DNA from: Comamonadaceae bacterium
GTDB taxonomy: Bacteria > Pseudomonadota > Gammaproteobacteria > Burkholderiales > Burkholderiaceae_C
NCBI GenBank assembly: GCA_947475685.1
Contig: CANJNC010000013.1
Location: 1-64,000, forward strand
Length of the DNA: 64,000 bases
Direction: 5' to 3'
Shown: positions 1,535 through 17,516 of the stretch, piece after piece
How positions within the stretch are numbered: the first letter of the stretch is position 1
How the letters are laid out: the number at the start of each line of letters is the position of its first letter
The notes under the pieces: model-generated
Seen by the model: the letters and a program-made list of their open reading frames with translations, nothing else
What the model was told of the DNA's origin: nothing
Databases searched by the model: none
Program-made: the position numbers and the translations under genes

Positions 1535-3010
1535 ATGACCATGGACTATAAATACGATGATCTCAGGCAGTGGATTGACATCGTCCAAGAAATGGGTGAG
1601 TTGGCTCACCCCATAGGCGCTGATTGGAATTTAGAAATAGGTGCTGTCTCAGAGGTCGATTACAAAAAGCGCGGTCCTGCACTTTTGTTCGATGAAATCA
1701 AAGGGTACCCCAAAGGCTTTAGGGTGTTGACCTCTTCGACCAACAGCGCCAAGCGCTTGGGCCTCACCCTCAGAATGGGCATCGAGCACACCGATGCAAG
1801 TTTGGTGTCGGATTTGAGGGGTTTGCCCAATCGATGGACCCAAGAGGCTAAGAATTTTGATCCAATCTATGTAGAGACCTCGGCTGTTTTTGAAAACGTG
1901 ATGGAGGGCGAAGAGGTTGACTTGCTGAAGTTTCCAACTCCCTTTTGGCATGAAATGGATGGTGGGCGCTACATTGGAACTGGCGTGTCTGTGGCCACTG
2001 TAGACCCTGAGGAGAATTGGGTCAACCTTGGCGCTTACCGGTCCATGTTGATTGATAAGAACCATGTCGCTGTGGCTGCAGTGTCGGGCAAGCACGGTTA
2101 CATGCACATTCAAAAATGGATGGCCAAAGAGGGGCGTGCTCCCGTGGTGATCCACATTGGGATGGACCCCTTGTTCATGGTCATCAGTGGGGTAGAGGTG
2201 CCCAATGGCGTGAGCGAGTTGAACTACATTGGCGCCATTCGCGGTGAGCCCGTCAAGGTGATCAAAAGCACGGTCACCGGGTTGCCCATCATCGCGAGCG
2301 CTGAAATCGTCTTGGAGGGGTGGTTGATTGAAGGCGAAAAAACCGACGAGGGTCCATTTGGGGAGTGGCCAGGGTACTACGTGAGCGGAGTCTCTAGGGA
2401 GCCGCTTTTAAAAGTTGAGCGCGTGCTCTATAGGAACAACCCCATCATGCTGGGGTGCCCGCCTGCGAAACCTCCTCATGACTACTCCTATATGCGCACG
2501 ATTTTAAAGTCGGCGATGATTTTTGATGCACTGGTGGCCGCAGGCATTCCGGAGATCAAGGGCGTGTATGCGCCTGAATGTGGAGGCGGACGCATGCTGG
2601 TGGTGGTGTCAATCAAACAGCGTTACCCAGGTCATGCAAGACAAGCGGGCTTCATTGCTTCTCAACTTCCTGCCGCAGCTTACATGGGCAAGTACACCAT
2701 CGTGGTCGACGAAGACATTGATGTGACCAACTTGGAGGAGGTGATTTGGGCGGTGTGCACCCGCACCGATCCAGATACCAGCATCGATTTCATTCGACGT
2801 GCTTGGGCCAGCAAAGCCGAACCCATGCTCAGAAAGGGAGACCCCACCTTCAACTCAAGGGCGGTGATCGATGCGTGTCGGCCGTTTGAGTGGATCGCTG
2901 AGTTTCCCAAGGTCGCGCAAGCCGATCCCGAGTATTTGAAAGCGATCGAGAAGAAATGGGCGCATTTATTTGCGCCTGAACTCAACAAAGATGAAGGGGC
3001 TGTGAAATGA
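1535..3010 (+). CDS. UbiD-family (de)carboxylase 1
   Basis: 491 residues, the usual UbiD length. UbiD enzymes use prenylated FMN and a divalent metal to decarboxylate, reversibly, aromatic or alpha,beta-unsaturated acids. The expected active-site set is visible: N164 and R169 in NLGAYR, then E272 and E277 in EGPFGE, matching the N..R...E....E pattern of fungal Fdc1. PPAKPPHDYSY, later in the chain, is unlike the other two UbiD proteins in this window, so this one belongs to a separate subfamily. Start ATG 1535 or the in-frame ATG two codons later. It overlaps the next gene by ATGA, so the two are translationally coupled. The substrate is not known. Confidence 0.9.
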   Translation: MTMDYKYDDLRQWIDIVQEMGELAHPIGADWNLEIGAVSEVDYKKRGPALLFDEIKGYPKGFRVLTSSTNSAKRLGLTLRMGIEHTDASLVSDLRGLPNRWTQEAKNFDPIYVETSAVFENVMEGEEVDLLKFPTPFWHEMDGGRYIGTGVSVATVDPEENWVNLGAYRSMLIDKNHVAVAAVSGKHGYMHIQKWMAKEGRAPVVIHIGMDPLFMVISGVEVPNGVSELNYIGAIRGEPVKVIKSTVTGLPIIASAEIVLEGWLIEGEKTDEGPFGEWPGYYVSGVSREPLLKVERVLYRNNPIMLGCPPAKPPHDYSYMRTILKSAMIFDALVAAGIPEIKGVYAPECGGGRMLVVVSIKQRYPGHARQAGFIASQLPAAAYMGKYTIVVDEDIDVTNLEEVIWAVCTRTDPDTSIDFIRRAWASKAEPMLRKGDPTFNSRAVIDACRPFEWIAEFPKVAQADPEYLKAIEKKWAHLFAPELNKDEGAVK

Positions 3011-3972
3011 TCCATCGATGCAATCGTCTGTTGCTCGGACTGCTCTTTTGGGTGCTGAGCGCTGTGGCCTTTTCGGCGGATTTTCCCAGTCGGCCAGTTC
3101 GCATTGTGGTGCCCTTTACGGCGGGCGGGACCTTGGATGTGACGGCCCGTGTCATTGCTGCCAAACTCCATGACCTATGGGGACAATCGGTGGTGGTTGA
3201 TAACCGTGTGGGTGGCAATGGCGCCATTGGTGCAGACAATGTGGTGAGAAGTCCTGCAGATGGGCACACACTTTTGTACAACGGCTCATTGATCGTGGTG
3301 ACCCAACAGTTGCAAAAAACGACCTTTGACATAGCCAAGGATTTGCTGCCTGTGGTGCAGCCCGTGGTGTATTGGCACGTGTTGAGTGTAAGCGCCAAGT
3401 TGCCTGTAAACAGCTTTGCAGAGTTGGTGGAACTTGCAAAAAAACAACCGGGAAAATTGAATTACGGCAGTGGCGGACTGGGCTCGAGCTTGCACCTTTA
3501 TATGGAAAGACTCAAGAGCAATTTGAAAATCGACATTGCACATATTCCTTACAAGGGGAGCGCTCCTGCCACCCAAGCTTTATTGGCCGGTGAGGTCGAT
3601 ATTGTGTTTGACACGACCTCCGCCATGCTGCCCTTGATCAAAGCGGGCAAAGTCAAGCCCTTGGTGGTGACAGGAGAGAAGAGATTGGAGGTTTTAAGTA
3701 CGGTGCCGACTTTGAGCAGTTTCATCCCAGGCATGGCCGAGGAGCCTGGATGGCATGGTATCTTTGCGCCGGCTGGAACACCCAAGGCCGTGATTGACAA
3801 GATTGCCACAGACGTGAGGAGCGCCGTGTTGTCTGCCGAGTTGTCGAGCAAATTTAAAGACATGGAGTTTTTGCCCTCTGGTCTTTCAAATGAAGCATTT
3901 GCTGATGTTGTCAAAAAAGACTTTGACAAGTGGAGCAAGTTGATTCGTGAAAACAATATTCGCGGTGAGTAG
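3007..3972 (+). CDS. Bug-family (TctC) receptor 2
   Basis: 321 residues. The signal peptide is about residues 1-23 (hydrophobic LLLGLLFWVLSAVAFSA), then DFPSRPVRIVVPFTAGG. The Bug signatures GGTLDVTARVIAAKL, VVVDNRVGG and IPYKGSAPATQALL are present. The ATG lies inside the stop of the upstream UbiD gene (ATGA), preceded by GAAGGGG as ribosome binding site, so decarboxylase and receptor are made together. This coupling suggests that the bound ligand is the UbiD substrate or product. A receptor role is firm; the ligand is unknown. Confidence 0.92.
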   Translation: MIHRCNRLLLGLLFWVLSAVAFSADFPSRPVRIVVPFTAGGTLDVTARVIAAKLHDLWGQSVVVDNRVGGNGAIGADNVVRSPADGHTLLYNGSLIVVTQQLQKTTFDIAKDLLPVVQPVVYWHVLSVSAKLPVNSFAELVELAKKQPGKLNYGSGGLGSSLHLYMERLKSNLKIDIAHIPYKGSAPATQALLAGEVDIVFDTTSAMLPLIKAGKVKPLVVTGEKRLEVLSTVPTLSSFIPGMAEEPGWHGIFAPAGTPKAVIDKIATDVRSAVLSAELSSKFKDMEFLPSGLSNEAFADVVKKDFDKWSKLIRENNIRGE

Positions 3973-4008
3973 CCCCCTTTTTTTAACCTTTGATCAATAG
4001 AGAATCAC

Positions 4009-5073
4009 ATGACCGATGATTATGTAACACACGCCAGAGAGCACATGTTGGCTCGCTACACCATCAATGGCGTCAATGCGAGTGACTTCAAAGACGTGAC
4101 CCATTCCATTGATGATTGGGCGCATTGGTGTGAGGCATGGTCCAAGCGTGCGCTGGTGCACGAGTTGATGGGCAAAGAAGCCTTGGCAAAGGGTCAATTC
4201 ATCTCAGCCGCTGAGCATCTCACGCGGGCAGCCGTGACCTATCATTTTGGTAAATACTTGTTTGTGAACGACATGGCTCAACACAAAGTGGCCCATCAAA
4301 AGGCGGTTGAATGCCACACCTTGGCCTTGCCCCATATGAATCCACCGGGAAATAGAGTGTCTATTCCTTATGAAAACACCCATTTGGTGGGGATCTTAAG
4401 AAGACCCCAAAATGCATCTGGACCCAGTCCGGTGGTCATCATGACCATGGGGCTGGACTCTACAAAGGAGGAGTTGATTTTATTTGAACAGTATTTCTTG
4501 GACCGAGGCATGGCGACTTTGGCGGTGGACGGTCCTGGACAAGGAGAGGCGGAGTACGATTTGCCCATTCGATATGATTATGAAAACGTTGTGGGTCCAG
4601 TGATCGACTGGATAGAGCAAAACAAAGACTTGGATGCCAAGAGAATTGGTCTTTGGGGCATCAGCTTGGGGGGCTATTACGGACCCAGGACCGTGGCTTT
4701 TGAGAAAAGAGTAAAAGCTTGCATCTCCAACTGTGGACCCTACCACTGGGGCAAACTGTGGGACAAGTTGCCAGAGCTTACCAAAAAAGCGTTCACGGCC
4801 CGAAGCCACTCCAAAACAGATCAAGAGGCCAAAGAGAAGGCCAATTTATTGAGCTTAGAGGGCATCACGCACCAAATCACTTGCCCGATCTACATTGTCG
4901 CGGGTGGCTTGGATCGCTTGTGCCCTCCAGAAGACGCCAAGAAACTCGCCTCCGAGGTGAGCGGCCCCGTGGAGCTCGTGGTCATTGAAGATGGCAACCA
5001 CGTGGCGCACAACAGAGGGTACCGCTACAGGCCACAATCTGCCGATTGGATGGCTGAGCAACTCGGTGTTTGA
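4009..5073 (+). CDS. Alpha/beta hydrolase resembling 2,6-dihydroxypseudooxynicotine hydrolase
   Basis: 354 residues: a helical N-terminal region (about 1-115) followed by an alpha/beta-hydrolase core. The nucleophile is S219 in GISLGG, the acid D302 in GGLDRLCP, and the base H331 in EDGNHVAH. Length, architecture and triad spacing resemble, from memory, the C-C bond hydrolase of nicotine catabolism in Arthrobacter (triad S217, D300, H329) and the FrsA/DUF1100-like group. That enzyme cleaves a ring-hydroxylated pyridyl ketone. Here it lies between a UbiD/Bug pair and a molybdenum hydroxylase, a context that also fits cleavage of a hydroxylated ring product. There is no signal peptide, so it is cytoplasmic. 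The exact substrate is inference. Confidence 0.8.
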   Translation: MTDDYVTHAREHMLARYTINGVNASDFKDVTHSIDDWAHWCEAWSKRALVHELMGKEALAKGQFISAAEHLTRAAVTYHFGKYLFVNDMAQHKVAHQKAVECHTLALPHMNPPGNRVSIPYENTHLVGILRRPQNASGPSPVVIMTMGLDSTKEELILFEQYFLDRGMATLAVDGPGQGEAEYDLPIRYDYENVVGPVIDWIEQNKDLDAKRIGLWGISLGGYYGPRTVAFEKRVKACISNCGPYHWGKLWDKLPELTKKAFTARSHSKTDQEAKEKANLLSLEGITHQITCPIYIVAGGLDRLCPPEDAKKLASEVSGPVELVVIEDGNHVAHNRGYRYRPQSADWMAEQLGV

Positions 5074-5094
5074 TGCCAATCGAGTCTTGAGCTT

Positions 5095-7437
5095 ATGAAA
5101 AATGCGAGTTCTGTTGCACGCGTAGAGGACGAATTGCTCTTAAAAGGGCAAGGGCGTTTTGTGGACGATATTGAGCTGCCTGGCATGCTGCATGCGTGCT
5201 TTGTCAGAAGTGCTGTGGCACATGCAAAAATCGTCTCCATTCAAAAGGACGACGCCTTGTCTTTGCCTGGTGTGCATGCGATTTACCAGCACAAAGACTT
5301 GTGTTCGGTGATCAAGAAAGAGCGCATCCCCCAAGCGATTCAATCGGCCATGATCAAATTCGATGTGGATCCCTTTTGGTTGGCAAAGGAGGAGGTCTGT
5401 TATGTGGGCGAGCCTGTGGTGGTGGTCTTGGCCGATTCGCGTCGAGCGGCAGAAGATGCGGCGGAGTTGGTCTACATTGAGTACGACAGTTTGCCAGTGG
5501 TGGTGGACCCCAGACGAGGACTTCAAGCGAATTCTCCCCAAGCACGTTTGGACTGTGAGAGCAATTTGGTTGCGCAAACGCGTGTCAATTACGGTGAAGT
5601 TGAACACGCGTTTGATCACGCGCCGCATCAAATTTCGCAGCTCTTCACCCTCAACAAAGGCGGTGGACACTCCATTGAGCCAAGAGGTGTTGTGGCGGTT
5701 TTTGATCGATTTGAAAAAAAATTGAAAGTCTGGGACAGCACCCAAATGCCGCACCGTGCTCGAGACTTGTTGGTGCAGTCCTTGGCCTTGGGCGAGCATC
5801 AGGTGAGGGTGATTGCGCCCGATGTGGGTGGGGGTTTTGGTCCCAAGGCGGTGATCCATCCAGAAGAAATCGTGATTCCCGCTCTAGCCATGTTGTGTGG
5901 TCATCCAGTGAAATGGATCGAGGACCGATTGGAGTCCTTTAGTGCAACCGTCTTGGAGCGTTTGCAGTACTGGGACATGCACGTGGCCTTTGACCATGAG
6001 GGACGCCTCTTAGGGATCAAAGGTCATTTGTACCATGACCACGGTGCGTGTACACCCTATGGCGTGGCACTGCCTTACAACGCGGTGACCAACTTGGTGG
6101 GGCCCTATGTCTTGCCGGCCTTGGATATTGAAATTTCTTTGTGCTTGACCAATATGGTCCCTGCAACGCCCACTCGGGGTGCGGGCAGGCCTCAAGGCAC
6201 ATTTGTGATGGAGAGATTTTTAGACAAAATTGCCTGTGCCTTGAATTTGGACCGTGCGGAGGTGAGAAGAAGAAACTTGATCCAAGCATCGGCCATGCCT
6301 TACACCGTTCCCATTTTGCAAAGAGATGGCTCGCCCATGTGCTACGACACGGGGGATTATCTGGAGTCGCAAAAAAGGGCCCTTGAGGCCTTTGATTGGG
6401 TGGGATTCAAAGAGAAACAACGCTGCGCGCGCGATTTGGGCAAGTACATCGGTCTGGGTTTGGCCAATTATGTGGAGGCCACAGGACGAGGGCCTTTTGA
6501 GAGCGGCAGCGTTCGCATTGGCCCTTCTGGGCAAATCGTGGTGACCACTGGAGCGACTGCTCAAGGGCAAGGTGTGAAGACCATGCTCTCTCAAATTGTG
6601 GCTGAGCAACTGGGTGTGCAAGCCCATGAGATTGAAGTTCAAGATGGGGACACCGATGCGAGCGCTTTGGGTTTTGGAGCTTTCGCTTCTAGGCAAGCGG
6701 TGACAGCGGGCAATGCGGTATTTCTGGCGGCTGGCTTGGTGGCAGAAAAAATCAAATGGGCCGCCAGCGAGTTTTTAGAAGTATCCAAAGATGACTTGGT
6801 GCTTGAGCAGGGCTTTGTCAAGATCAAGGGGGCTGCAGAGATCAACATGTCCTTTGCTCAAATCGCCAGGAAGCTTGCCGGTGTGCCAGGTTTTGCGTTG
6901 CCAAAGGGCTTAAAGCCCGGTTTGGCCGAGTTTGTGGACTTTGAGCCTGCGGGACTTACCTACACCAACGGCACGCATTTGGCCGAGGTTGAAGTGGATG
7001 TGCAAACGGGTGGCGTCGTGATCAATCGGTATTTGGTGATGCACGACTGTGGCCGCATCATCAACCAAATGATGGTGGATGGACAGGTGTACGGTGGCGT
7101 GGTTCATGGGATTGGTGCGACGCTTTTTGAGTGGATGCGCTATGACGAAGAGGGCCAGCCTTTGACGGCCACATATGCCGATTACTTGTTGCCCACCGCA
7201 GATGTGGTGCCCAGAATTGAAATCATGCACATGGAGTCCCCAACGCCCCTGAACCCCATGGGTGTCAAAGGTGCGGCAGAGAGTGGCACGATTGGAGCAC
7301 CCTCAGCGATCGTATCGGCCATTGACGATGCCTTGTCCCCCTTTAAGCTTGAGTTGTGTGACTTGCCCATCACCCCAGCCAAATTACAAGCCATGATCTC
7401 CCGTGCCCAAGAGCGAGATCACAGTCATGGTGGTTGA
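5095..7437 (+). CDS. Xanthine-dehydrogenase-family molybdopterin-binding (large) subunit, set 1
   Basis: 780 residues, standard for the large subunit of three-subunit molybdenum hydroxylases. It binds Mo-molybdopterin cytosine dinucleotide and hydroxylates the substrate with water. The N-terminal hammerhead domain begins at RVEDELLLKGQGRFVDDI. GGGFGPKA, TRGAGRPQG, GQGVKTMLSQIVAEQLG and the C-terminal GAAESGTIGAPSA (catalytic glutamate) follow. TRGAGR resembles the form II (AYRGAGR) motif; the AYxCSFR loop of true CO dehydrogenase is absent, so this is a hydroxylase, not a CO oxidiser. The FAD and 2Fe-2S subunits follow directly. The substrate is probably an N-heteroaromatic or related ring compound (inference from context). 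Confidence 0.92.
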   Translation: MKNASSVARVEDELLLKGQGRFVDDIELPGMLHACFVRSAVAHAKIVSIQKDDALSLPGVHAIYQHKDLCSVIKKERIPQAIQSAMIKFDVDPFWLAKEEVCYVGEPVVVVLADSRRAAEDAAELVYIEYDSLPVVVDPRRGLQANSPQARLDCESNLVAQTRVNYGEVEHAFDHAPHQISQLFTLNKGGGHSIEPRGVVAVFDRFEKKLKVWDSTQMPHRARDLLVQSLALGEHQVRVIAPDVGGGFGPKAVIHPEEIVIPALAMLCGHPVKWIEDRLESFSATVLERLQYWDMHVAFDHEGRLLGIKGHLYHDHGACTPYGVALPYNAVTNLVGPYVLPALDIEISLCLTNMVPATPTRGAGRPQGTFVMERFLDKIACALNLDRAEVRRRNLIQASAMPYTVPILQRDGSPMCYDTGDYLESQKRALEAFDWVGFKEKQRCARDLGKYIGLGLANYVEATGRGPFESGSVRIGPSGQIVVTTGATAQGQGVKTMLSQIVAEQLGVQAHEIEVQDGDTDASALGFGAFASRQAVTAGNAVFLAAGLVAEKIKWAASEFLEVSKDDLVLEQGFVKIKGAAEINMSFAQIARKLAGVPGFALPKGLKPGLAEFVDFEPAGLTYTNGTHLAEVEVDVQTGGVVINRYLVMHDCGRIINQMMVDGQVYGGVVHGIGATLFEWMRYDEEGQPLTATYADYLLPTADVVPRIEIMHMESPTPLNPMGVKGAAESGTIGAPSAIVSAIDDALSPFKLELCDLPITPAKLQAMISRAQERDHSHGG

Positions 7438-7464
7438 GCCAACCAACGAATCAAAGAGAACACA

Positions 7465-8340
7465 TTGAAAGCTGCTCATTTTGACTACCATGCGCCTCGC
7501 ACGCTCGTCGAGGCTTTGGACTTGTTGTCCACGCTTGAGAATGCCAGAGTGCTCGCTGGCGGTCAATCCTTGATGCCCATGCTGAATTTAAGGTTGGGTG
7601 GCTTTGATCACTTGATTGATTTAGGCCACGTTGCTGAATTGAGTGTCATCGAAAAAGTGTCTGGGGCCTACAAAATTGGTGCCATGGTCAGGCAAAGAGA
7701 AATTGAAAAATTTGAGGGTTTTGAAAAGAACGTGCCTCTTTTGTACCAAGCCATTCGGTATGTGGGGCACCAACAAACGAGAAACCGAGGCACCATTGGT
7801 GGAAGCATTTGTCATTTGGACCCCTCTGCCGAGCTGCCTTTGGTGGCGTTGACGATGGATGCCAGGCTAGAGGTGGCAAGCACCAGGGGCATGCGTCAAA
7901 TTGAATTCAAGGATTTCTTCTCCAGTTTGTTAAGTTCAGTGTTAAGCCCTGATGAAATTTTGACCCGCATTTACATGCCTGTCTCTCATGAGAGTGACTG
8001 TTGTGTATTTTTAGAGTTTTCAAGAAGACCTGCAGATTTTGCGATAGCTTCAGTTGCGGTTGTGCTGCGACTTGATGAACAAGAAAAAATACAACACTTG
8101 AAAATCGGTATCGGTGGCTTGGGTCCAAGTGCAGTTCGTTTGTATGAGTTTGAACAAAAATTCAAAGGTCAATTCTGGTCTGAGACCATGCTAAGCGAGC
8201 TGCAGTCGCACATCAAAACATTGCCCGGTGAGGGCGACTTGGACAACACGCCCGAGTACCGCAACACCTTGGCGCAAGTGTTGGTCAAACGCGCATTGAC
8301 AAAGGCTTTTCAAATGAACAAGAATCCCCTTCATGGCTAA
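7465..8340 (+). CDS. FAD-binding (medium) subunit of molybdenum hydroxylase, set 1
   Basis: 291 residues, CoxM-type. The FAD-binding motifs are LAGGQSLMPMLNLRL (about 31-45) and TRNRGTIGGSICHLDP (about 108-123). The subunit passes electrons from the Fe-S subunit to an acceptor. The start is TTG at 7465, weakly preceded by AAAGAGA; the protein begins with the typical MKAAHFDYHAP. The 3' end overlaps the 2Fe-2S subunit by 8 bases, which points to coupled translation. Confidence 0.92.
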   Translation: MKAAHFDYHAPRTLVEALDLLSTLENARVLAGGQSLMPMLNLRLGGFDHLIDLGHVAELSVIEKVSGAYKIGAMVRQREIEKFEGFEKNVPLLYQAIRYVGHQQTRNRGTIGGSICHLDPSAELPLVALTMDARLEVASTRGMRQIEFKDFFSSLLSSVLSPDEILTRIYMPVSHESDCCVFLEFSRRPADFAIASVAVVLRLDEQEKIQHLKIGIGGLGPSAVRLYEFEQKFKGQFWSETMLSELQSHIKTLPGEGDLDNTPEYRNTLAQVLVKRALTKAFQMNKNPLHG

Positions 8341-8818
8341 ACATCAAATCGAACTAAGGGTCAACGAAAATACCTATTCAAGAACAGTCGATAGCGCCTT
8401 GAATTTGGTGGATTTTTTGAGAAATGAACTCGGCTTAAAAGGCACGCACATTGGTTGCGAGCATGGTGTGTGCGGTGCATGCACGGTGTTGGTGGATCAA
8501 AAGACGGTGCGGGCTTGTTTGATGCTGGCCGTTCAAGCCCAAGGCATGCATGTCCAAACCATAGAGTCCATTGCCAACGCAGATGGATCTTTGTCAGAGA
8601 TTCAGCTCAAGATGAAAGAACACCATGGTTTGCAGTGTGGGTTTTGCACGCCTGGGGTTGTGATGACCATCAAGGAGTTGATGGCCGAGAACAAGGGGCT
8701 TGCGTTGAGTGAGGCGCAAGTCAGAACCGCATTGTCTGGAAACTTGTGCCGATGCACGGGGTATCAAGGCATGGTCGATGCGGCCTTGGATTTGATCAAT
8801 CCCTCTTTAGCTCAATGA
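8333..8818 (+). CDS. 2Fe-2S (small) subunit of molybdenum hydroxylase, set 1
   Basis: 161 residues, the usual length. The plant-type 2Fe-2S cluster ligands are C42, C47, C50 and C62 (GCEHGVCGACTV). The C-terminal cluster ligands are C101, C104, C138 and C140 (CGFCTPG and CRCTGYQG). All eight cysteines are present, so the electron path is complete. It is the third gene of the large-medium-small order; it overlaps the FAD gene by 8 bases, and its stop overlaps an ATG at 8815 in the next gene's frame. Confidence 0.93.
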   Translation: MAKHQIELRVNENTYSRTVDSALNLVDFLRNELGLKGTHIGCEHGVCGACTVLVDQKTVRACLMLAVQAQGMHVQTIESIANADGSLSEIQLKMKEHHGLQCGFCTPGVVMTIKELMAENKGLALSEAQVRTALSGNLCRCTGYQGMVDAALDLINPSLAQ

Positions 8819-8853
8819 GCACAGACGAACCTTTAAAGAAAGCACGCCCCTTC

Positions 8854-9819: not shown

Positions 9820-9872
9820 GATCCCATCTCCGTTCCCCGTCTTCACACCTTCACACCTTTAAAAATAATCCC

Positions 9873-10868
9873 ATGCTCAAACGTTCAATGCCAGTCACAA
9901 TAGGTTCTTGGTGCGCGCTTCTGATGCTGTCTGGCGCATGGATGTGCAGTGCGCATGCACAGACCCTTGGCTCGTCTTATCCAAACAAAGCCATCAAATT
10001 GATCATCCCAAGCCCACCAGGAGGTGGCACGGATGTGCTCGCCCGTTTGCTGGCCACCAAGCTCAGCGAAAAATGGTCCCAGCCTGTGGTGGTTGAAAGC
10101 CGAGCAGGGGCTGGGGGCAACATAGCCGCAGAGTTTGTCTTTAAATCCCCCGCAGATGGCTACACCTTGATGTTGGCTCACCCAGCGCCTTTGGTCATCA
10201 ACAAGACCCTCTACTCCAAAATCACCTACGAGCCCGATCAATTCACGCCCATCACGGTGGTTGCCTCTGTGCCCAATGTTTTGGTGACAAGAATGGGTGG
10301 ATCGATCCAAAATTTACAGCAACTCATCAGTTCGGCGAAAGCCGCGCCCGATAAATTGAACTATGCATCAGGTGCCATTGGTTCTCCCTCTTCACTGACG
10401 CCAGATTTGTTCAAGTACATGACTGGTGTCAAGATTGTTGGGATTCCTTTTCAGGGGAGTGCGCCGGCTTTGATGGCCCTTTTGGGCGCCCAAGTTGACA
10501 TGTTGTTTGTCGAGTTGAGCACCGCTTTGCCGCACATTCGCTCCGGGAAACTGAGAGCCATTGCCGTGGCCAGTGAGAAAAGAAGTTCATTGTTGCCAGA
10601 AACGCCAAGCCTTGCTGAAACATTGCCGGGCTTTAGTGCGGCCGTTTGGTTTGGCATTGTCGGCCCTCCCAAACTACCGCTTGCAGTCGCTGAGCTGTGG
10701 GCGCATGCTGTGGCGGAGACTTTGAAAATGCCAGATGTTGCCAAACAGCTCGCTGAGATGAGCATGGAGCCGGTAGCAAGTTCTCCCATGGAGCTTGCCC
10801 AATACATGCAAGAGGAGAGTAAGCGCTGGAGCGCGGTGATCAAAATGAGTGGTTCAAAAGTTGATTGA
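9873..10868 (+). CDS. Bug-family (TctC) receptor 4
   Basis: 331 residues. The signal peptide is about 1-30 (CSAHAQT cleavage region), then SYPNKAIKLIIPSPPGGGTD. GGGTDVLARLLATKL, VVVESRAGAGGNIAAEFV, PADGYTLM and GIPFQGSAPALMALLG are present. Together with the previous gene it makes a tandem pair of receptors, but the two differ enough to be old paralogues rather than a fresh duplication. A nitrilase gene follows 30 bases later. Confidence 0.92.
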   Translation: MLKRSMPVTIGSWCALLMLSGAWMCSAHAQTLGSSYPNKAIKLIIPSPPGGGTDVLARLLATKLSEKWSQPVVVESRAGAGGNIAAEFVFKSPADGYTLMLAHPAPLVINKTLYSKITYEPDQFTPITVVASVPNVLVTRMGGSIQNLQQLISSAKAAPDKLNYASGAIGSPSSLTPDLFKYMTGVKIVGIPFQGSAPALMALLGAQVDMLFVELSTALPHIRSGKLRAIAVASEKRSSLLPETPSLAETLPGFSAAVWFGIVGPPKLPLAVAELWAHAVAETLKMPDVAKQLAEMSMEPVASSPMELAQYMQEESKRWSAVIKMSGSKVD

Positions 10869-10898
10869 TTCAAAGCACTGCAAACAAAGACTTCAACC

Positions 10899-12590
10899 AT
10901 GACCTTTGCAAAACCACACCACAAGACTCGGATTGCTTGTTGCCAAATTTCACTGGTCCCTGATGAAGCTTTGAATTTGGCCAAGTGTTTGAACTTGATT
11001 GATCAAGCAAGCAGTGTGAAACCCGATTTGGTGATTTTGCCTGAGATGTCCAATTGGTCTGCCGGTCTGGTCAAGTCAAAGTCAGATGCACTCGCACACA
11101 GTGTCACTGTGCAAGGACCTTTCTTATCGGCCATCGCAAAAAAAGCCCATCAGTACGGCTGTTTCATTGCCATTGGGGTGATTGAGCAATGGGATGAAGA
11201 GACCTTCATCACCAGTGTGATCCTCTCGCCAGATGAAAAGATTGTTCTCAAGTACCAAAAACAAATCCCCTTTGGCCCACAGATTGCCTGGGCCAGTCCG
11301 GGGCGCACCGGTAACCCCGTGGTTCAATTGCCTTTTGCCCGGGTGGGTCTGTATATTTGTGCAGATGGATTGATTCCAGAGACGACTCGAGTGCTAGCAT
11401 TGAAAGGCGCTCAATTGTTGATCAACACCTTGCATTCAGGTGGAGCAGATGAAACCTATTTGCATGTCCCCGTTCGAGCTTATGAGAACCAGGTTTGGGT
11501 TGCGAGTGCCAACAAAGTCGGCCAACGGGATCTGGGCGCTTTAGATCGTTTCAGTGGAGGCAGTCAAATTGTCTCTCCCAAAGGAGATGTGGTGGCCAGA
11601 GCCGACGCTTTGAATGACGCTTTTATATGGGCGGATGTGGATTTCAATGACCTGGAAATGCTGCCAGCAACAAAGGGCAAACTCCATGAGCTCAGACGAC
11701 CTGAGTGCTATGGCCAATTGATCAAAAAACCAGCCTATCCTTTTGAGAACCACGAGTTCAAAGGGCCCGCCTCTCTCGGTGTAGCCGTGCTGCAACCCAT
11801 CGGGCATGGCATTGAGGCTCTCCATGCGGCCCTTAAAGCATGCAGTCAAGTGGTACAGTCTGGTGGTGCTCGACTCTTGGTGTTGCCGCACCTGCTGATG
11901 CATGACTTAAAGGCCCAAGACTTCGATCCAGCGCAAGCGGCCGTTTTGGATGTCCAAGCCCTTGAAGCGGTCAAAGAGGCGGCAAGAAAAACCTCCAGTT
12001 GGTTGGTGTTCTCTTTGATCAAAGTCAATGCGCACATGCCTGCAGCGTACCATCTGTGCACGGATTTGATCGACCCCACGGGTGCTGTTTTTGGCTCACA
12101 AATCCAAATTCATGTGCCTGCACATTTGCGCACTTGGGTGAGTGGGGGGTCTGAATTTAAAGTCTTTCAAACACCCATTGGTCGCATCGGGCTCTTGGGA
12201 GGGACAGACGCGCAGGTCTTGGAGTCGTACAGAGTATTGACCTATTTGGGTGTGCAAGTGGTGTGTGTGAGTGGTGCCCTGGAAGAAGACAAGGAAGTGG
12301 ACTTGGGGCTAAGAGAGCGTGTGGCAGAAAACAGAATCCACATCGTCTTTGCAAGTCGAAGTGATGCACCTTGTGCAAGGGGTTCGGTCATTGTGCAAGC
12401 AAGCGCATACCCGAGTGAGCCTCATTGGCGAGTGCGTTTTCCCGATGTGCAAACGATTGAGCCCGCTCAGACGCAGTTGTCTGCAAGCCTAGACTTATGG
12501 GCCACCAATGACAAAACCGTCGCTCCTCTGGGCTGTGATTTGCTCTTAAGTCCTCGATACGATCAGTATCAGCGACTGATTGAACCCTAA
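10899..12590 (+). CDS. Carbon-nitrogen hydrolase with a second, degenerate nitrilase domain
   Basis: 563 residues, about twice the usual 270-300. The N-terminal half (about 8-275) is a complete nitrilase-superfamily domain with the E49 (LPEMSNW), K121 (KYQKQIPFGP) and C154 (YICADGLIPE) triad, as in amidases and nitrilases that release ammonia. The C-terminal half (about 291-560) repeats the fold: LGVAVLQP mirrors RIACCQI, and GGARLLVLPH mirrors VILPE. There, however, the glutamate is H331, the lysine position is not conserved, and the cysteine position in GRIGLLGGTDA is glycine (G435). The second half therefore looks catalytically dead and may be structural or regulatory. By context it would deaminate an amide or nitrile formed by ring opening. 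Confidence 0.85.
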   Translation: MTFAKPHHKTRIACCQISLVPDEALNLAKCLNLIDQASSVKPDLVILPEMSNWSAGLVKSKSDALAHSVTVQGPFLSAIAKKAHQYGCFIAIGVIEQWDEETFITSVILSPDEKIVLKYQKQIPFGPQIAWASPGRTGNPVVQLPFARVGLYICADGLIPETTRVLALKGAQLLINTLHSGGADETYLHVPVRAYENQVWVASANKVGQRDLGALDRFSGGSQIVSPKGDVVARADALNDAFIWADVDFNDLEMLPATKGKLHELRRPECYGQLIKKPAYPFENHEFKGPASLGVAVLQPIGHGIEALHAALKACSQVVQSGGARLLVLPHLLMHDLKAQDFDPAQAAVLDVQALEAVKEAARKTSSWLVFSLIKVNAHMPAAYHLCTDLIDPTGAVFGSQIQIHVPAHLRTWVSGGSEFKVFQTPIGRIGLLGGTDAQVLESYRVLTYLGVQVVCVSGALEEDKEVDLGLRERVAENRIHIVFASRSDAPCARGSVIVQASAYPSEPHWRVRFPDVQTIEPAQTQLSASLDLWATNDKTVAPLGCDLLLSPRYDQYQRLIEP

Positions 12591-12658
12591 AGAGGCCTTG
12601 GTCTGCGCTTTGAGGCTTTGCGCTGAATGTATGGATCCGTTTTGACTGGAGGTTGGGT

Positions 12659-13357
12659 TTGATTGATAAAGAAGTAGACAGTTGTGATCGTGCGGTAGAG
12701 GGCGTCTTTGAGGGTGCCAGCATCATGCTGGGCGGATTTGGCAATGCAGGCATGCCAGGTCAATTGATCGATGCTCTTCGTCGAAAAGGGGTGAAGAATT
12801 TGACCATCATCAGCAATGGCGCAGGCACGGGGCCTTTTGCGTTGGGTGCACTGTTTGCTGAAGGTCTGGCAAGCAAACTCATCGCCTCCTACCCCGCACC
12901 AACGGCGGTTGGATTTAGAGACCGCTATTTGAAAGGCGAAGTGGAGTTGGAGTTGGTGCCCCAAGGCAGTTTGGTTGAGCGCATTCGCTGTGGGGGCAAT
13001 GGTTTGGGTGGTTTTTATACGCCAACTGGGGCGGGAACGGAGCTGGCCCATGGGAAAGAGACGAGGAGCATGAATGGCCGTGAATATGTGCTTGAGCTTG
13101 CATTAAGAGCGGATTTTGTTTTCTTAAAGGCGCACTTGGGAGACCGCTTTGGTAACCTCTCCTACAGAGGAACGATGCGCAACTTCAATATGGTCATGGC
13201 CAGTGCAGGGGATGTGGTCATCGCTGAGGTTGACCAATTGGTCCCCGCAGGAGGGATCAAGCCAGACGATGTTCACACCCCTGGTATTTTTGTGGATCAA
13301 GTCATTGAGATCGCTCGGTTACCGAAATTGTTAGAGCTTCCTAAGGAGGGATCGTGA
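12659..13357 (+). CDS. CoA transferase, subunit A (3-oxoacid/glutaconate CoA-transferase family I)
   Basis: About 232 residues. Start chosen at TTG 12659 because GGAGG lies 6 bases upstream; an in-frame TTG at 12653 is too close to that site. The glycine-rich GGFGNAGMPGQLIDAL loop and ISNGAGTG near the N-terminus, and NFNMVMASAGDVVIAEVD towards the C-terminus, are typical of the alpha chain (ScoA/PcaI/CatI type). It moves CoA from a donor such as succinyl-CoA to a carboxylic acid. It is followed with overlap by subunit B, and probably activates the acid produced by the preceding hydrolase and nitrilase steps. Confidence 0.9.
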   Translation: MIDKEVDSCDRAVEGVFEGASIMLGGFGNAGMPGQLIDALRRKGVKNLTIISNGAGTGPFALGALFAEGLASKLIASYPAPTAVGFRDRYLKGEVELELVPQGSLVERIRCGGNGLGGFYTPTGAGTELAHGKETRSMNGREYVLELALRADFVFLKAHLGDRFGNLSYRGTMRNFNMVMASAGDVVIAEVDQLVPAGGIKPDDVHTPGIFVDQVIEIARLPKLLELPKEGS

Positions 13358-14055
13358 TGACAAATTTGTCCAGAGATGGAATTGCTTGGCGAATTGCAAG
13401 AGACTTGCACGAGGGCAATTATGTCAATTTGGGGGTCGGCATCCCGGTTTTGGTATCGAATTACTTAGACCCCGATCAAGAAATCTTTTTGCACAGTGAA
13501 AACGGCATTTTAGGCGTGGGCCCCAAACCTGAGAAAGATCAACTTGATTTGGACTTGATCAGCGCGGGCAAGGGTTTTTGTACCCTCGCATTGGGGGCCA
13601 GTTTGTTTGATCAACAAATATCCTTCACCATGATGCGAGGAGGGCACTTGACGCATGCCATTTTGGGAGCCCTTGAGGTGGCCGAGAATGGAGACTTTGC
13701 CAATTGGAAAGTCCCTGGCGAGGCGGTACCTGGTGTAGGGGGTGCGATGGATTTGGCCATCGGGTCTCCCAATATCTATGTGGCCATGACCCATGTGAGC
13801 AACAAGGGCAAACCCAAAATCGTTCACCGCTGTTCGGCCCCTTTAACGGCTAGAAGCTGTGTCAAGAGAATTTACAGCGACATCGCCGTGATGGACTTGA
13901 CGCCACAAGGCTTGATTCTCAAGGAGTACATGCCTGGTTTTGATCCCATCAAAGTTCAATCTATGACGGAGGTAAAGTTGTTGGTCTCAGAGCATTGCCA
14001 TGAAATGCTCGTTCCTCCAATCGCCTCCAACGGGGTGAAGTTGTATCAATCTTAA
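13357..14055 (+). CDS. CoA transferase, subunit B
   Basis: About 232 residues. ATG 13357 sits 6 bases after AAGGAGGG; the GTG at 13354 is the alternative. It overlaps the stop of subunit A, so the pair is translationally coupled. VNLGVGIPVLV and HSENGILGVGP carry the beta-chain signature; the glutamate of SENG is the residue that forms the gamma-glutamyl-CoA thioester in this family. GGAMDLAIGSPNIYVAMTH follows. With subunit A it makes a complete family I CoA transferase. The acceptor acid is unknown; succinyl- or acetyl-CoA donors are usual. Confidence 0.92.
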   Translation: MTNLSRDGIAWRIARDLHEGNYVNLGVGIPVLVSNYLDPDQEIFLHSENGILGVGPKPEKDQLDLDLISAGKGFCTLALGASLFDQQISFTMMRGGHLTHAILGALEVAENGDFANWKVPGEAVPGVGGAMDLAIGSPNIYVAMTHVSNKGKPKIVHRCSAPLTARSCVKRIYSDIAVMDLTPQGLILKEYMPGFDPIKVQSMTEVKLLVSEHCHEMLVPPIASNGVKLYQS

Positions 14056-14071
14056 CTTTCGAGGTTAAAAA

Positions 14072-14590
14072 GTGAGTAAATCTGACATTCCCTTGAGCGA
14101 TGCTGAAGTTCAAAACATCAAAAAAATCATCTCGACTTTCAACGATTCGAGCCTGAATTATTTGGACCTTGAATTGGGTGACTTGAAAATTAAAATTGGC
14201 AAAGGCAGCTTGCCCGCTCAATATCCGGCGCTTGCACCCCATGCCAGTGCCCCTCAATCTTCGTTGTCGCACCCTGCCCTGCATGCTGCAAACGAATCGA
14301 TGGCCCCACCAAAATCGGCAGCGTCGGATACGCTAATTTTGGGTCCTGATGAGGTCCAAATCAAATCGCCCTTGGTTGGCAGGTATTACTCCCAGGCTGA
14401 ACCAGGCGCAAAAAAATATGTGGATCTAGGCAGTCCTGTGCAAGCCGATACCACGGTGGCATTGATTGAGGCCATGAAAATGTTCAATGCAGTCCCCTCA
14501 GGGGTGAAGGGCCAGATCTCTAAAATATTGGTGCAAGATGGGGAGTTGGTGGAGTACGGCCAAATTTTATTCCATGTCAAAGTGATGTAG
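14072..14590 (+). CDS. accB: Biotin carboxyl carrier protein
   Basis: 172 residues. GTG start at 14072 with GAGG about 7 bases upstream. The N-terminal helix region (VQNIKKIISTFNDSSLNYLD) is AccB-like. A Pro/Ala/Ser-rich linker (about 48-85) leads to the biotinyl domain with the EAMKM motif; K136 is the biotinylation site. It lies 16 bases after the CoA transferase and before the biotin carboxylase. It is AccB-like by sequence, but here it serves a dedicated catabolic carboxylase rather than, or as well as, fatty acid synthesis, because the partner transferase is of the pyruvate/oxaloacetate type. The symbol therefore reflects similarity only. Confidence 0.88.
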   Translation: MSKSDIPLSDAEVQNIKKIISTFNDSSLNYLDLELGDLKIKIGKGSLPAQYPALAPHASAPQSSLSHPALHAANESMAPPKSAASDTLILGPDEVQIKSPLVGRYYSQAEPGAKKYVDLGSPVQADTTVALIEAMKMFNAVPSGVKGQISKILVQDGELVEYGQILFHVKVM

Positions 14591-14645
14591 ATTTTCCCCC
14601 AAATGAATTCCTCGCTTTTTAACCTGCGAACTTTAATGTCTTGCC

Positions 14646-16043
14646 ATGGCTCAAGCTATTGATTCTGTCACGTTCAAACGAATTTTGATTGCCAATCGAG
14701 GTGAAATTGCAGTGCGCATTATTCACGCTTGTCGCGCCCTTGGGGTCGAATCTGTATTGGCGGTCTCTGAGGTGGACAAACACACATTGGGGGCTCAAAT
14801 GGCAGACAAGGTGGTGTGCATTGGTCCTGCAAGTTCGAGTGAGAGTTATTTGAAGATATCAGCGCTGATGGCGGTTGCAAGTGCTACGCAATGCCAGGCC
14901 TTGCATCCAGGGTATGGCTTCTTGGCCGAGTCTGAAGACTTGGCCCTGGCCTGTGAGAAGGCGGGCATCGTATTCATTGGTCCCACATCAAGCCAAATTT
15001 TAAGCATGGGCAATAAATTGCAAGCCAGAGCATTGGCCAAACTGGCCCAAGTGCCCATGCTCAGTGGCTCGGAAAAAGTGAGGGACGCGGATCATGCCTT
15101 GGATTTGGCTGAAAAAATTGGGTACCCCGTCATGCTCAAAGCGGCTGCAGGTGGGGGCGGCAAGGGCATGAAAATAGTGCGCTCTGGCAATCAGATGCAA
15201 AGCCTATTTGGCTCAGCGAGTGCCGAGTCCAGGTCTGCATTTGGGGATGACACCCTATACTTGGAAAAATACATCTCTAACGCAAGACACGTGGAGGTTC
15301 AAGTTTTGGGGGATCACCATGGCCACTTGATTCATTTAGGGGAGCGAGACTGCTCACTGCAAAGGCGCCACCAAAAGGTGGTTGAAGAGTCACCCGCTCC
15401 AGTCTTGGCGCAATCTGTACGGACTCACATTCGAGACGCAGCCTTGAAGTTGGCCAAGGCGATTGAATACAGAAATGCGGGCACTGTTGAATTCATTTTG
15501 GATGGCAATACATCGGAGTTTTATTTCCTTGAGATGAATACGCGCATTCAAGTCGAGCACCCCGTGTCTGAAACCGTCTCCGGCATCGATTTGGTGGAGG
15601 AGCAAATTCGCATCGCCAGTGGTCAAGCCTTGAGGTTTTCTCAAGAGGACGTGGTCTTCAGAGGTCATGCCATTGAGTGCCGCATCAATGCGGAAGTGCC
15701 CTCAGAGGGTTTTCGACCCAGTCCTGGCTTGATCACCAAATGGATCCCCCCAACAGGGCCCAATATTCGCTTGGACACCCATTGTTTTGAAGGATACCGA
15801 GTGCCCATCGATTACGACTCCATGTTGGCCAAATTGATTGTGTATGGTGTTGATCGAATGGATGCCATCAGACGACTCAGGCACGCACTGGATTATTTTG
15901 AAATCGAGGGGATTGGTACGACCTTGCCATTCATCAAATATGCCATCGCGCATCCAAGTTTCATCAGTGGGGAGGTCAACACGGTTTTGGTTGACAAGAT
16001 GATTGCTGAGATGGCGTTGAAGGATCGCAAGGAAGTGACTTGA
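14646..16043 (+). CDS. accC: Biotin carboxylase subunit
   Basis: 465 residues, full length for AccC-type biotin carboxylase, which uses ATP and bicarbonate to carboxylate biotin on the carrier protein. IANRGEIAVRIIHACRALG begins the N-domain. The ATP-grasp glycine-rich loop is AAAGGGGKGMKIV, and the carboxylase signatures HLGERDCSLQRRHQKVVEES and NTRIQVEHPVSE are intact. It is second in a carrier-carboxylase-transferase operon. The chromosomal fatty-acid accBC pair probably lies elsewhere; this copy is linked to catabolic genes and a HMGL-type transferase. Confidence 0.9.
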   Translation: MAQAIDSVTFKRILIANRGEIAVRIIHACRALGVESVLAVSEVDKHTLGAQMADKVVCIGPASSSESYLKISALMAVASATQCQALHPGYGFLAESEDLALACEKAGIVFIGPTSSQILSMGNKLQARALAKLAQVPMLSGSEKVRDADHALDLAEKIGYPVMLKAAAGGGGKGMKIVRSGNQMQSLFGSASAESRSAFGDDTLYLEKYISNARHVEVQVLGDHHGHLIHLGERDCSLQRRHQKVVEESPAPVLAQSVRTHIRDAALKLAKAIEYRNAGTVEFILDGNTSEFYFLEMNTRIQVEHPVSETVSGIDLVEEQIRIASGQALRFSQEDVVFRGHAIECRINAEVPSEGFRPSPGLITKWIPPTGPNIRLDTHCFEGYRVPIDYDSMLAKLIVYGVDRMDAIRRLRHALDYFEIEGIGTTLPFIKYAIAHPSFISGEVNTVLVDKMIAEMALKDRKEVT

Positions 16044-16064
16044 ACATGCATGGAGGTTTATTGA

Positions 16065-17516
16065 ATGAATAAAATCGAACTCGTTGATGTGACCCTCAGA
16101 GATGGTCATCAAAGTCTTTGGGCCGAGAGGATGACCACGGGCATGATGATGCCGATCATCGAGGGCTTGGATCGAGCAGGTTTTAACGCAGTAGAGGTGT
16201 TGTCGCCCTCCTTCATTGGCAAATGCGTGAGAGATTTGACTGAAGATCCATTTCAAAGAATGCGCTTGTTGCGCCAAAAGGGTGGCAAGACCCCTTTGCG
16301 TGTCAATGCGGGTGGATTGAATGTGTTTGGCACCGATCAACCAGCGATGCTGGATTTGTTTTGGCGCATCATGGCCGAGACCGGCATTCAAGAGGTGAGG
16401 GTGTCGGATTCTTGGAACGACCCGAAAGTTTGGAAGTTAAGAGCGGGCTCTGCGAGCAAAGCGGGTGTCAAACCGATCATCAACATCACCTACTCCATCT
16501 CTCCCAAGCACACGACCCAATACTATGTGCAAAAAACCAAAGAGGCGCTTGAATTAAAGCCTTATCGAATTTGTTTGAAAGATCCGGGTGGCCTTTTGAC
16601 GCCAGAGCGCACGCGTGAATTGGTGCCCTTGATGCTTAAGATTGCCCAAGACACGCCTCTTGAGTTGCATACCCATTGCTCCACAGGTCTGGCTCCCATG
16701 TGTGTGATTGAAGCGGTGAAGTTGGGTGTGACCATCATCAACACCTCCATCCCACCTTTGGCCGACGATGCTTCACTGCCCTCAGTCTTTAACGTGATCT
16801 CCAATTTAAGGGGTTTGGGTTACCAAGTGGATGTGGATGAGACGCTCTTGTACCCCATTCGTGCGCATTTTGAATGCATCGCGCAAAGGGAAAATTTCCC
16901 TGTGGGTCGACCCGTGGAATTTGATTGTGCTCAATACATTCACCAAGTTCCTGGGGGCATGATCTCTAACCTTAGAAATCAACTCAAGGAAGTGGGAGCG
17001 GAGGACAAATTGCCCATGGCGCTTGAAGAGGCGGTCCAAGTCAGGGCGGACTTTGGTTACCCCATTATGGTGACGCCTTTGTCTCAATTTGTGGGCAGTC
17101 AAGCGGCGGTGAATGTGATGACTGGTAAACGCTATGAGCAAGTCACGGATCAGTCGATTCGATTTGCTTTGGGGCATTTTGGGGGAAATGTAGCCGTTGA
17201 CATGAACCCACAGGTGAGAGAGAAAATTTTAAACAGTCCCAGAGCAAAAGAGCTGTCCAAGATGAACTTTACTGAGTTGTCCTTGAATGAATTGAGAAAA
17301 AATTTGGATGCACAATCGTTGTCAGATGAGGATTTTTTACTCAGTTACTTGATGAGAAAAGAAGACATTCAAAAGATGCGCTCCAAAGGTACGCAAGTTG
17401 AACTCTATCAAACACAGGATCTGAATTTATCTGACTTGATCAAGGATCTCTCAAGCGTGGCCAAGGGCAACATGGTTCAGATCTCAAAGGGCGGTTTTAA
17501 TTTAAGCATTGGTTGA
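16065..17516 (+). CDS. Carboxyltransferase subunit of pyruvate/oxaloacetate carboxylase type (HMGL-like)
   Basis: 483 residues; ATG 16065 follows GGAGG by 9 bases. The TIM-barrel HMGL-like domain starts at LVDVTLRDGHQS (D13 metal/substrate site), with K172 in LKDPGG as the carbamylated-lysine position and H202/H204 in HTH for the metal; the conserved PYC_OADA domain follows (YIHQVPGGMISNLRNQL). Pyruvate carboxylase usually reads KDMAG where this protein has KDPGG, so the substrate may not be pyruvate. There is no biotinyl domain of its own; the carrier is the separate gene at 14072. Together they make a three-gene biotin-dependent carboxylase or transcarboxylase of unknown acid substrate. Confidence 0.85.
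   Translation: MNKIELVDVTLRDGHQSLWAERMTTGMMMPIIEGLDRAGFNAVEVLSPSFIGKCVRDLTEDPFQRMRLLRQKGGKTPLRVNAGGLNVFGTDQPAMLDLFWRIMAETGIQEVRVSDSWNDPKVWKLRAGSASKAGVKPIINITYSISPKHTTQYYVQKTKEALELKPYRICLKDPGGLLTPERTRELVPLMLKIAQDTPLELHTHCSTGLAPMCVIEAVKLGVTIINTSIPPLADDASLPSVFNVISNLRGLGYQVDVDETLLYPIRAHFECIAQRENFPVGRPVEFDCAQYIHQVPGGMISNLRNQLKEVGAEDKLPMALEEAVQVRADFGYPIMVTPLSQFVGSQAAVNVMTGKRYEQVTDQSIRFALGHFGGNVAVDMNPQVREKILNSPRAKELSKMNFTELSLNELRKNLDAQSLSDEDFLLSYLMRKEDIQKMRSKGTQVELYQTQDLNLSDLIKDLSSVAKGNMVQISKGGFNLSIG

Follow-up and report, generated by a model that had tools for sequence, protein, structure and literature searches.

What does a row of 16 genes do in which a UbiD-family decarboxylase, a C-C hydrolase, a molybdenum hydroxylase, a nitrilase, a CoA transferase and a biotin carboxylase follow one another on a single strand, and on which substrate would it act? 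The row occupies positions 517-18685 of a 64-kb stretch of DNA from a Comamonadaceae bacterium (contig CANJNC010000013.1; hereafter the window), which represents the first 64 kb of a 75-kb contig in a genome of 3.77 Mb labelled G000 (G and L numbers are our working names for compared genomes and contig stretches). A first-pass annotation made from the letters alone had listed these enzymes in this order together with five Bug receptors between 517 and 18685, and had proposed an undescribed degradation pathway for an N-heteroaromatic acid. Profile searches recovered all of the enzymes as named and all five receptors (PF03401); for the nitrilase and the biotin carboxylase the family calls were right and could be refined to a tandem CN_hydrolase protein and an enzyme with a carboxyltransferase of the PYC-B/OadA fold (Table 1). 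The idea of one single pathway is only partly supported: the row is a composite of two separable modules that other bacteria carry apart, module A (Mo hydroxylase, C-C hydrolase and UbiD) and module B (CoA transferase, three-subunit biotin carboxylase, a thiolase-like protein without the nucleophilic Cys, and a DUF35 protein). The row is likely an operon for the catabolism of some (hetero)aromatic carboxylate, and an N-heteroaromatic substrate is plausible because of the kinship of the Mo hydroxylase, the pairing of this enzyme with the hydrolase, and the presence of the nitrilase.

The first 15 genes (517-17516) are separated by gaps of only -8 to +62 bp (using the 8854 start for Bug receptor 3), and the sixteenth, encoding the fifth Bug receptor, follows 173 bp after 17516. 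Gene order and strand are the same in three genomes of the same genus, G028, G067 and G037 (in the last split across two contigs), and the arrangement is therefore not due to chance; the search of gene neighbourhoods, named beforehand as the test that could overturn the proposal, thus found the gene set conserved in other genomes. The window starts at the contig end, and the first Bug gene is preceded in L041 by a polyhydroxybutyrate depolymerase-like gene ending 363 bp before it and in L040 by a 414-aa open reading frame (ORF) ending 344 bp before it. Among the 16 genes, family calls based on profiles gave no oxygenase (and no ring-cleaving dioxygenase), no nicotine oxidase, no CoA ligase, no regulator and no kinase or phosphatase, including kinases resembling phosphoenolpyruvate synthase. 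Promoter- and terminator-like sites were no commoner than in shuffled sequence.

A scan of contigs across genomes yielded 23 loci encoding a relative of the hydrolase (ABH). Nine of them are full-length at 65-94% identity, three from the genus of the window (L040-L042), one from Betaproteobacteria (L043) and five from Hyphomicrobiales (L044, L045, L046, L048, L061), and in 8/9 Mo-hydroxylase genes and a UbiD gene lie beside that of ABH; the Mo-hydroxylase large subunit (MoL) itself is visible in seven of these, the contig of L061 beginning inside the Mo genes. Between the window and the Hyphomicrobiales the identity amounts to 65-70% for ABH, 60-64% for MoL, 60-63% for the 2Fe-2S subunit and 41-44% for UbiD. 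None of the 13 ABH loci below 60% identity showed a match to MoL or UbiD at E <= 1e-8, several of their contigs being short, and L056 and L057 contain a distant 2Fe-2S match (34-35%). At E <= 1e-130, ABH was found in 1/397 genomes sampled from the order to which G488 belongs (this genome itself) and in 5/399 from the order of the window (its own genome and four at 55-58%). The module A hydrolases form one group in the hydrolase tree with moderate support (81/85), and in the MoL tree the window group has as its sister (99/98) a clade of Alphaproteobacteria (100/99) containing the module A copies. The best match to the window MoL in G490, G489 and G488 is the module A copy, while in G491 a paralogue scores slightly above the module copy, which is cut by the contig end. 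The alphaproteobacterial loci also carry other genes, namely GMC oxidoreductases (L044, L048, L061), MFS transporters (L044, L046) and, in L045, an ABC transporter together with an isochorismatase-type gene whose product we presume could be another amidase.

MoL has as its nearest solved chains those of quinoline 2-oxidoreductase (1t3q) and 6-hydroxypseudooxynicotine dehydrogenase (7dqx); Glu729, placed by a motif of this family, is presumably its catalytic residue. The resemblance of ABH to the C-C hydrolase of nicotine breakdown, noted at first sight, was borne out by sequence and by predicted fold. Its closest solved relative is 2,6-dihydroxypseudooxynicotine (DHPON) hydrolase (2jbw, E 4.5e-44), and a structure model built from 19 sequences (mean pLDDT 92.0) has the architecture of 2jbw, an alpha/beta hydrolase fold with a helical N-terminal domain; in a Foldseek search four 2jbw chains came on top, with TM-scores to 2jbw_B of 0.91 (query) and 0.90 (target), followed by AntI, Wdyg1p and Ayg1p, which are polyketide-shortening enzymes by their PDB titles. 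To our knowledge no UbiD, biotin carboxylase or CoA transferase is known from the pAO1 nicotine pathway, from which DHPON hydrolase and the ketone dehydrogenase KdhLMS come. The residues Ser217-Asp300-His329, named as the triad of DHPON hydrolase (PMC6122326, in excerpt), align to S219, D302 and H331 of ABH and are invariant in 19/19 rows. For the tautomerising Glu248 the offset of the triad leads to a Trp at position 248 of the 2jbw chain, with the nearest Glu at 251, and the aligned column holds no conserved Glu. In pAO1 the hydrolase gene adjoins that of the large subunit of the Mo enzyme ketone dehydrogenase (PMC6122326, in excerpt), and in the window ABH likewise lies 21 bp upstream of MoL, so that in both systems a three-subunit Mo hydroxylase is paired with a hydrolase that shares fold and triad; they differ in that the hydrolases are only ~33% identical (tblastn) and that the row of the window is without a nicotine oxidase.

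The genome of the window also encodes a 52% paralogue of ABH (L008, 4453-8241; G000:C22), adjoined by a Bug gene and by a thiolase-like/DUF35 pair whose members have 34% and 29% identity to the counterparts of module B; matches to Mo hydroxylase or UbiD are absent from its 20 kb.

The UbiD of the window carries at R169, E272 and E277 what we take, by motif, to be the E-R-E residues, and these columns are invariant in 9/9 rows. An E(D)-R-E triad is described for the family (PMC8988006). Its bit scores are 330.8 to 7pda, 194.6 to the pyrrole-2-carboxylate decarboxylase HudA/PA0254 and 127.7 to PtHmfF (6h6v). At the substrate-contact position occupied by N318 in HudA and H297 in HmfF (PMC7976604, in excerpt), the window has Tyr317 and the Hyphomicrobiales rows have Met. 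It thus shares family and E-R-E residues with HudA and differs from it in the contact residue and in its higher score to 7pda, and with these residues and scores it is ruled out as an orthologue of either HmfF or HudA. In the UbiD tree the group of the window joins a sequence of Paraburkholderia caribensis (L108; 100/98, a fork at which, by the warning of the tool, long branches meet), while the module UbiDs of Hyphomicrobiales fall into a separate clade (100/100) that also takes in further UbiDs from their own genomes and one from an Aromatoleum plasmid. Since they lie in different clades, UbiD has probably joined module A independently in the two classes, or has been replaced, and a single, strictly inherited five-gene module is ruled out by these non-orthologous UbiDs.

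The combination of UbiD and Mo hydroxylase had appeared unfamiliar in the first-pass annotation, a view that is not supported: the hmf furan pathway has both (PMC6604932, PMC12064950, in excerpt), and the pairing recurs in the Hyphomicrobiales genomes searched. The five genomes of that order contain 28 UbiD matches (E <= 1e-40) and 71 MoL matches (E <= 1e-100), and 14/28 UbiDs lie within 5 kb of a match to MoL or the FAD subunit (the 5 of module A and 9/23 others), where a rough uniform placement of MoL genes would give 1.35; as the presence of module A was the criterion for choosing these genomes, and short contigs are common in them, the count is a hint rather than a survey. Six loci (L149-L154, in G492, G488 and G489) have UbiD genes beside Mo-hydroxylase genes, and the module A hydrolase was not seen in these neighbourhoods. 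This hints that proximity of UbiD and Mo hydroxylase is a recurring theme with many members, module A with its C-C hydrolase being one case, and the repeated nearness of unrelated UbiDs to Mo hydroxylases suggests that both reactions may act on one substrate.

Apart from the row, the window contains a second catabolic cluster (18824-36102), whose UbiD/Mo part extends over 20821-36102. On the minus strand it encodes UbiD2 (20821), a substrate-binding protein, a Bug receptor, a CoxG-like protein, a crotonase, an alpha/beta hydrolase and a three-subunit Mo hydroxylase (27372-31354), and on the plus strand a GcvA-like LysR regulator (31621), UbiD3 (32642), UbiX (34377) and another Bug receptor. 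The cluster is syntenic in G028 up to the LysR gene and in G067 up to the large subunit of this second Mo hydroxylase (MoL2), where the compared stretches end. Including the UbiD at 1535, three UbiDs and two Mo hydroxylases are found within 36 kb.

The nitrilase (563 aa) is a tandem protein, with Pfam CN_hydrolase on two stretches and halves that resemble each other at E 1e-5. Its N-terminal domain has E49, K121 and C154 in 3/3 rows, assigned by motif and presumably forming the E-K-C triad, whereas in the C-terminal domain both E and C are missing from the aligned places in 3/3 rows (in L041 a Cys lies one column off). The nitrilase occurs in the same 4/149 genomes as the ABH orthologues with at least 92% identity.

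Module B reads CoTA-CoTB-BCCP-BC-CT (CoA transferase subunits A and B, biotin carboxyl carrier protein, biotin carboxylase and carboxyltransferase) in G028, G067 and G037, where it continues with a thiolase-like gene, a DUF35 gene (ChsH2-type OB) and the Bug gene that lies at 17690 in the window. Kin of this fifth receptor also stand beside module B elsewhere, at 75% in L078 and at 67, 65 and 42% in L079, in which a separate BCCP or CoTB was not called. In the window the thiolase-DUF35 pair is deleted, although an assembly fault is possible. From 17545 the sequence reads MAVNIYSSWANAGIDQSM and then a stop; 47 bp of this scar (36 identical) match the thiolase start of L065 and 17 bp (16 identical) match L063 close to where its thiolase gene ends, and after it (17545-17658) the window rejoins L065 31 bp ahead of the Bug gene. 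The best other match to the thiolase in the genome of the window has 38% identity. All five module B copies of the thiolase-like protein (5/5) have QNAGASP or QAAGASP, with Gly in place of what we take to be the nucleophilic Cys, and WGNAH where we would expect the His of GHP; the thiolase of a Rhodococcus cluster (L112) keeps both Cys and GHP. Due to the Gly, aldolase-like or other cleavage appears more likely than thiolysis.

In the tree of the carboxyltransferase, which was calculated without HpeB and XccC sequences, the protein of the window lies outside the oxaloacetate decarboxylase clade, in a clade of orthologues (starred) beside a Sulfitobacter plasmid copy (83/83), the deeper forks being open or weak. 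The Arg of the motif LLRGxN binds the keto acid (pyruvate). It is retained in 2/2 oxaloacetate decarboxylase rows, in those of Caballeronia and Arthrobacter and in the two of Rhodococcus, whose clusters contain a dikinase-like gene, and is replaced by Gly in 5/5 module B rows and by Thr in three rows that come from plasmid clusters containing HAD hydrolases (L115, L118, L121). These three also share with the window a Cys after HxH, as do the Caballeronia and Sulfitobacter copies. With its place outside the oxaloacetate decarboxylase clade and without this Arg, a plain pyruvate carboxylase is ruled out. The simplest reading of the families in module B would be conversion of a ketone to a 3-oxo acid and on to a 3-oxoacyl-CoA; for a levulinate-type carboxylation nothing relevant appeared among the open-access papers listed. 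The biotin carboxylase is also a less unusual addition than had been assumed in the first-pass annotation, as aryl-ketone pathways also have biotin carboxylases of three subunits: HpeCBA carboxylates aryl ketones in their phosphorylated but not in their free form, and XccBCA is implicated in the catabolism of 4-hydroxyacetophenone (PMC9618137, in excerpt). Common to these enzymes and module B are separate genes for BCCP, BC and CT; in the window, however, CT belongs to a clade of its own, no kinase or phosphatase gene is present, a CoA transferase takes the place of a CoA ligase, and the thiolase-like partner of the relatives lacks the Cys. On a Rhizobium plasmid, the cluster L121 has annotated genes for a kinase resembling phosphoenolpyruvate synthase and for a phosphatase, whereas L115 and L118 have a HAD hydrolase without such a kinase.

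Two other carboxylase loci may be mentioned here. The genome of the window encodes a second three-subunit carboxylase (L080, 4187-7648; G000:C40) with 42-43% identity in CT, Bug genes beside it and an Ala replacing the Gln of the RDxxQS motif in CT. Two Rhodococcus plasmids (L112, L119) have a row of pyruvate, phosphate dikinase (annotated), BCCP, BC, CT, OB-fold protein and thiolase, parallel in gene content to module B.

Taken as one operon, the row could work as follows. In an upper part made up of module A and the nitrilase, the Bug receptors would bind the acid, and UbiD, using prenylated flavin mononucleotide (prFMN) from UbiX, would take off the ring carboxylate. The Mo hydroxylase would then add a water-derived hydroxyl group next to the ring heteroatom, giving a product able to take a diketo or lactam form, in which the Ser-Asp-His hydrolase would cut a C-C bond hydrolytically via an acyl-enzyme, similar to the pair of ketone dehydrogenase and DHPON hydrolase of pAO1; the first domain of the nitrilase would free ammonia from the resulting amide. 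Module A would thereby feed module B, the lower part, whose three-subunit biotin carboxylase would carboxylate a ketone and whose CoA transferase would activate the 3-oxo acid, and in the relatives the Cys-less thiolase-like/DUF35 pair would split the CoA ester. As this pair is deleted in the window, the last step would there be taken over by another enzyme, or else the module is decaying. That the row is a catabolic operon for a ring carboxylate, formed by joining the two modules and following this scheme, has in our estimate about an even chance of being correct.

A number of observations weigh against the scheme. At the level of the row, no regulator lies inside it, module B occurs without module A in G005 (L078, CT 72%) and G101 (L079, CT 66-67%), and L043 (ABH 72%), with a contig starting 1.8 kb upstream, has only Bug genes near and no Mo or UbiD gene in the 10 kb downstream; a tenth locus, the end fragment L062, is likewise without a Mo or UbiD match in its 10 kb, its upstream side being cut off. 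Within module A, the FAD subunits of the window and the Hyphomicrobiales are only 45-49% identical, and the window FAD subunit is matched better by a paralogue at another place than by the module copy in G489 and G491; the alphaproteobacterial MoL clade also takes in two paralogues, L140 and L142, whose surroundings (L147, 17 kb, and L148, a 6.4-kb contig) showed neither a hydrolase nor a UbiD. The two classes have non-orthologous UbiDs, both of which depart from HudA and HmfF at the contact position. Nitrogen in the substrate is not implied for the Hyphomicrobiales, since the nitrilase was not seen in their loci, and the ABH family is not confined to N-heterocycles, with polyketide enzymes among its fold matches. 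For the lower part, HpeCBA requires phosphorylated ketones and the row has no kinase, while the window is without the thiolase-like gene and the copy of its relatives is without the nucleophilic Cys.

The independent occurrence of the modules suggests, as an alternative, two adjacent operons that run in one direction but serve separate substrates, a heteroaromatic acid in the case of module A and an oxo-acid or ketone in that of module B. Module B stands alone with its own Bug gene in G005 and G101, and module A is found without B in the five Hyphomicrobiales loci, as would be expected in that case. We nevertheless consider it unlikely, as the same order with the nitrilase in between is kept in G000, G028, G067 and G037, and the gap between nitrilase and CoTA measures only 62 bp, with no terminator-like site listed there.

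Distinctly unlikely in our view is a pathway related to hmf furan breakdown but working without CoA, or the corresponding route for pyrroles, in which UbiD would decarboxylate a furan- or pyrrole-dicarboxylate, the Mo hydroxylase would act at C5 and ABH would open an enol-lactone or lactam instead of a C-C bond, the pyrrole form leading to 2-oxoglutaramate for the nitrilase. The hmf pathway comprises a UbiD/UbiX decarboxylase, a molybdopterin-using three-subunit hydroxylase, a GMC oxidase, a hydrolase and transporters (PMC6604932, PMC12064950, in excerpt). Its versions in Cupriavidus basilensis HMF14 and Pseudomonas umsongensis GO16 share with the window UbiD and UbiX, the three-subunit Mo hydroxylase and a hydrolase, and with 3/5 alphaproteobacterial loci also the GMC oxidase; the content of L044, L048 and L061, with MFS transporters in L044 and L046, indeed mirrors hmfABC, hmfF and hmfH, and the row has no oxygenase. 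On the other hand, a furoyl-CoA synthetase (hmfD) was found neither among the 16 genes nor in the flanking ORFs of L041, L044, L045, L046, L048 and L061 that were searched with Pfam (a subset), the UbiD is not of the HmfF type by score and by contact residue, and the hydrolase is a different one, ABH falling into the C-C hydrolase fold group; Bug receptors are a further difference.

A carbocyclic pathway for an aryl ketone or hydroxybenzoate without ring nitrogen, with the hydrolase acting as in polyketide or isoflavone cleavage, the carboxylase as in the acetophenone pathways Hpe/Xcc (PMC9618137, in excerpt) and the nitrilase on an unrelated amide, has AntI, Wdyg1p and Ayg1p and a gene in a Variovorax isoflavone cluster, 25% identical to DHPON hydrolase (PMC11069340, in excerpt), in its favour, but is improbable given that MoL is closest, among solved chains, to N-heterocycle hydroxylases and that kinase, phosphatase and oxygenase are absent from the row. 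The same relatives of the hydrolase leave the proposed N-heteroaromatic acid plausible rather than secured. A nicotinate- or picolinate-type pathway (via 2,5-dihydroxypyridine) is ruled out by the lack of a ring-cleaving dioxygenase in the row.

Returning to the joined scheme, the parts are known and their combination is new: none of the open-access papers listed in the searches describes it, most subscription papers lying outside those searches, and to this extent the pathway can still be called undescribed. In a wider form it may be stated only tentatively, with the odds clearly against it, that a CoA-free route of decarboxylation, hydroxylation and hydrolysis for a heteroaromatic carboxylate is built around the conserved pair of Mo hydroxylase and C-C hydrolase, that unrelated UbiDs joined it independently in Alpha- and Betaproteobacteria as part of a recurring partnership of UbiD and Mo enzymes, and that in a single betaproteobacterial genus a ketone carboxylase dependent on biotin and belonging to a new clade, together with its Cys-less thiolase-like/DUF35 partner, completes the route. 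If the scheme is true, it would add an oxygenase-free route of ring degradation to some Burkholderiales and Hyphomicrobiales, provide a defined gene set with which the partnership of UbiD and Mo hydroxylase could be tested outside furans, and point to an uncharacterised clade of biotin-dependent carboxylases.

Table 1. Genes of the catabolic row and related features in the window, with the evidence for each assignment.
Feature	Position	Strand	Evidence
Bug (TctC) receptor 1, first of the row	517..1506	+	PF03401 E 8.6e-77; 84-91% identity in L040-L042
UbiD-family prFMN decarboxylase	1535..3010	+	PF01977 E 8.2e-62, PF20696, PF20695; nearest solved chain 7pda
Bug receptor 2	3007..3972	+	PF03401
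DHPON-hydrolase-like alpha/beta C-C hydrolase (ABH)	4009..5073	+	2jbw E 4.5e-44
Mo hydroxylase large subunit (MoL)	5095..7437	+	PF20256/PF02738/PF01315
Mo hydroxylase FAD subunit	7465..8340	+	PF00941, PF03450
Mo hydroxylase 2Fe-2S subunit, eight Cys	8333..8818	+	PF01799, PF00111; Cys positions
Bug receptor 3 (ORF 8746-9819; likely start 8815 or 8854)	8815..9819	+	PF03401
Bug receptor 4	9873..10868	+	PF03401
Tandem CN_hydrolase (nitrilase/amidase)	10899..12590	+	PF00795, two stretches
3-Oxoacid CoA-transferase-type subunit A (CoTA)	12653..13357	+	TIGR02429 285.5 bits, cut-off 128.5
3-Oxoacid CoA-transferase-type subunit B (CoTB)	13354..14055	+	TIGR02428 272.7 bits, cut-off 243.55
Biotin carboxyl carrier protein (BCCP)	14072..14590	+	PF00364; TIGR00531 107.9 bits, below cut-off 115.2
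Biotin carboxylase (BC)	14646..16043	+	PRK08591 model 632.9 bits, cut-off 597
Carboxyltransferase (CT), PYC-B/OadA fold, own clade	16065..17516	+	PF02436/PF00682; tree; residues
Deletion scar of thiolase-like gene (intact thiolase-DUF35 pair here in relatives)	17545..17601	+	Sequence comparison
Bug receptor 5, accompanies the carboxylase module	17690..18685	+	PF03401; kin beside module B elsewhere
UbiX flavin prenyltransferase, likely supplies the UbiDs with prFMN	34377..35072	+	TIGR00421 241.5 bits, cut-off 108.9

Further downstream in the window, positions 44001-52000 have a G+C content of 43-45% compared to ~50% around them and contain Bug genes, a PaaK-like ligase and ORFs that by eye resemble amidohydrolases; this stretch is possibly a later acquisition.

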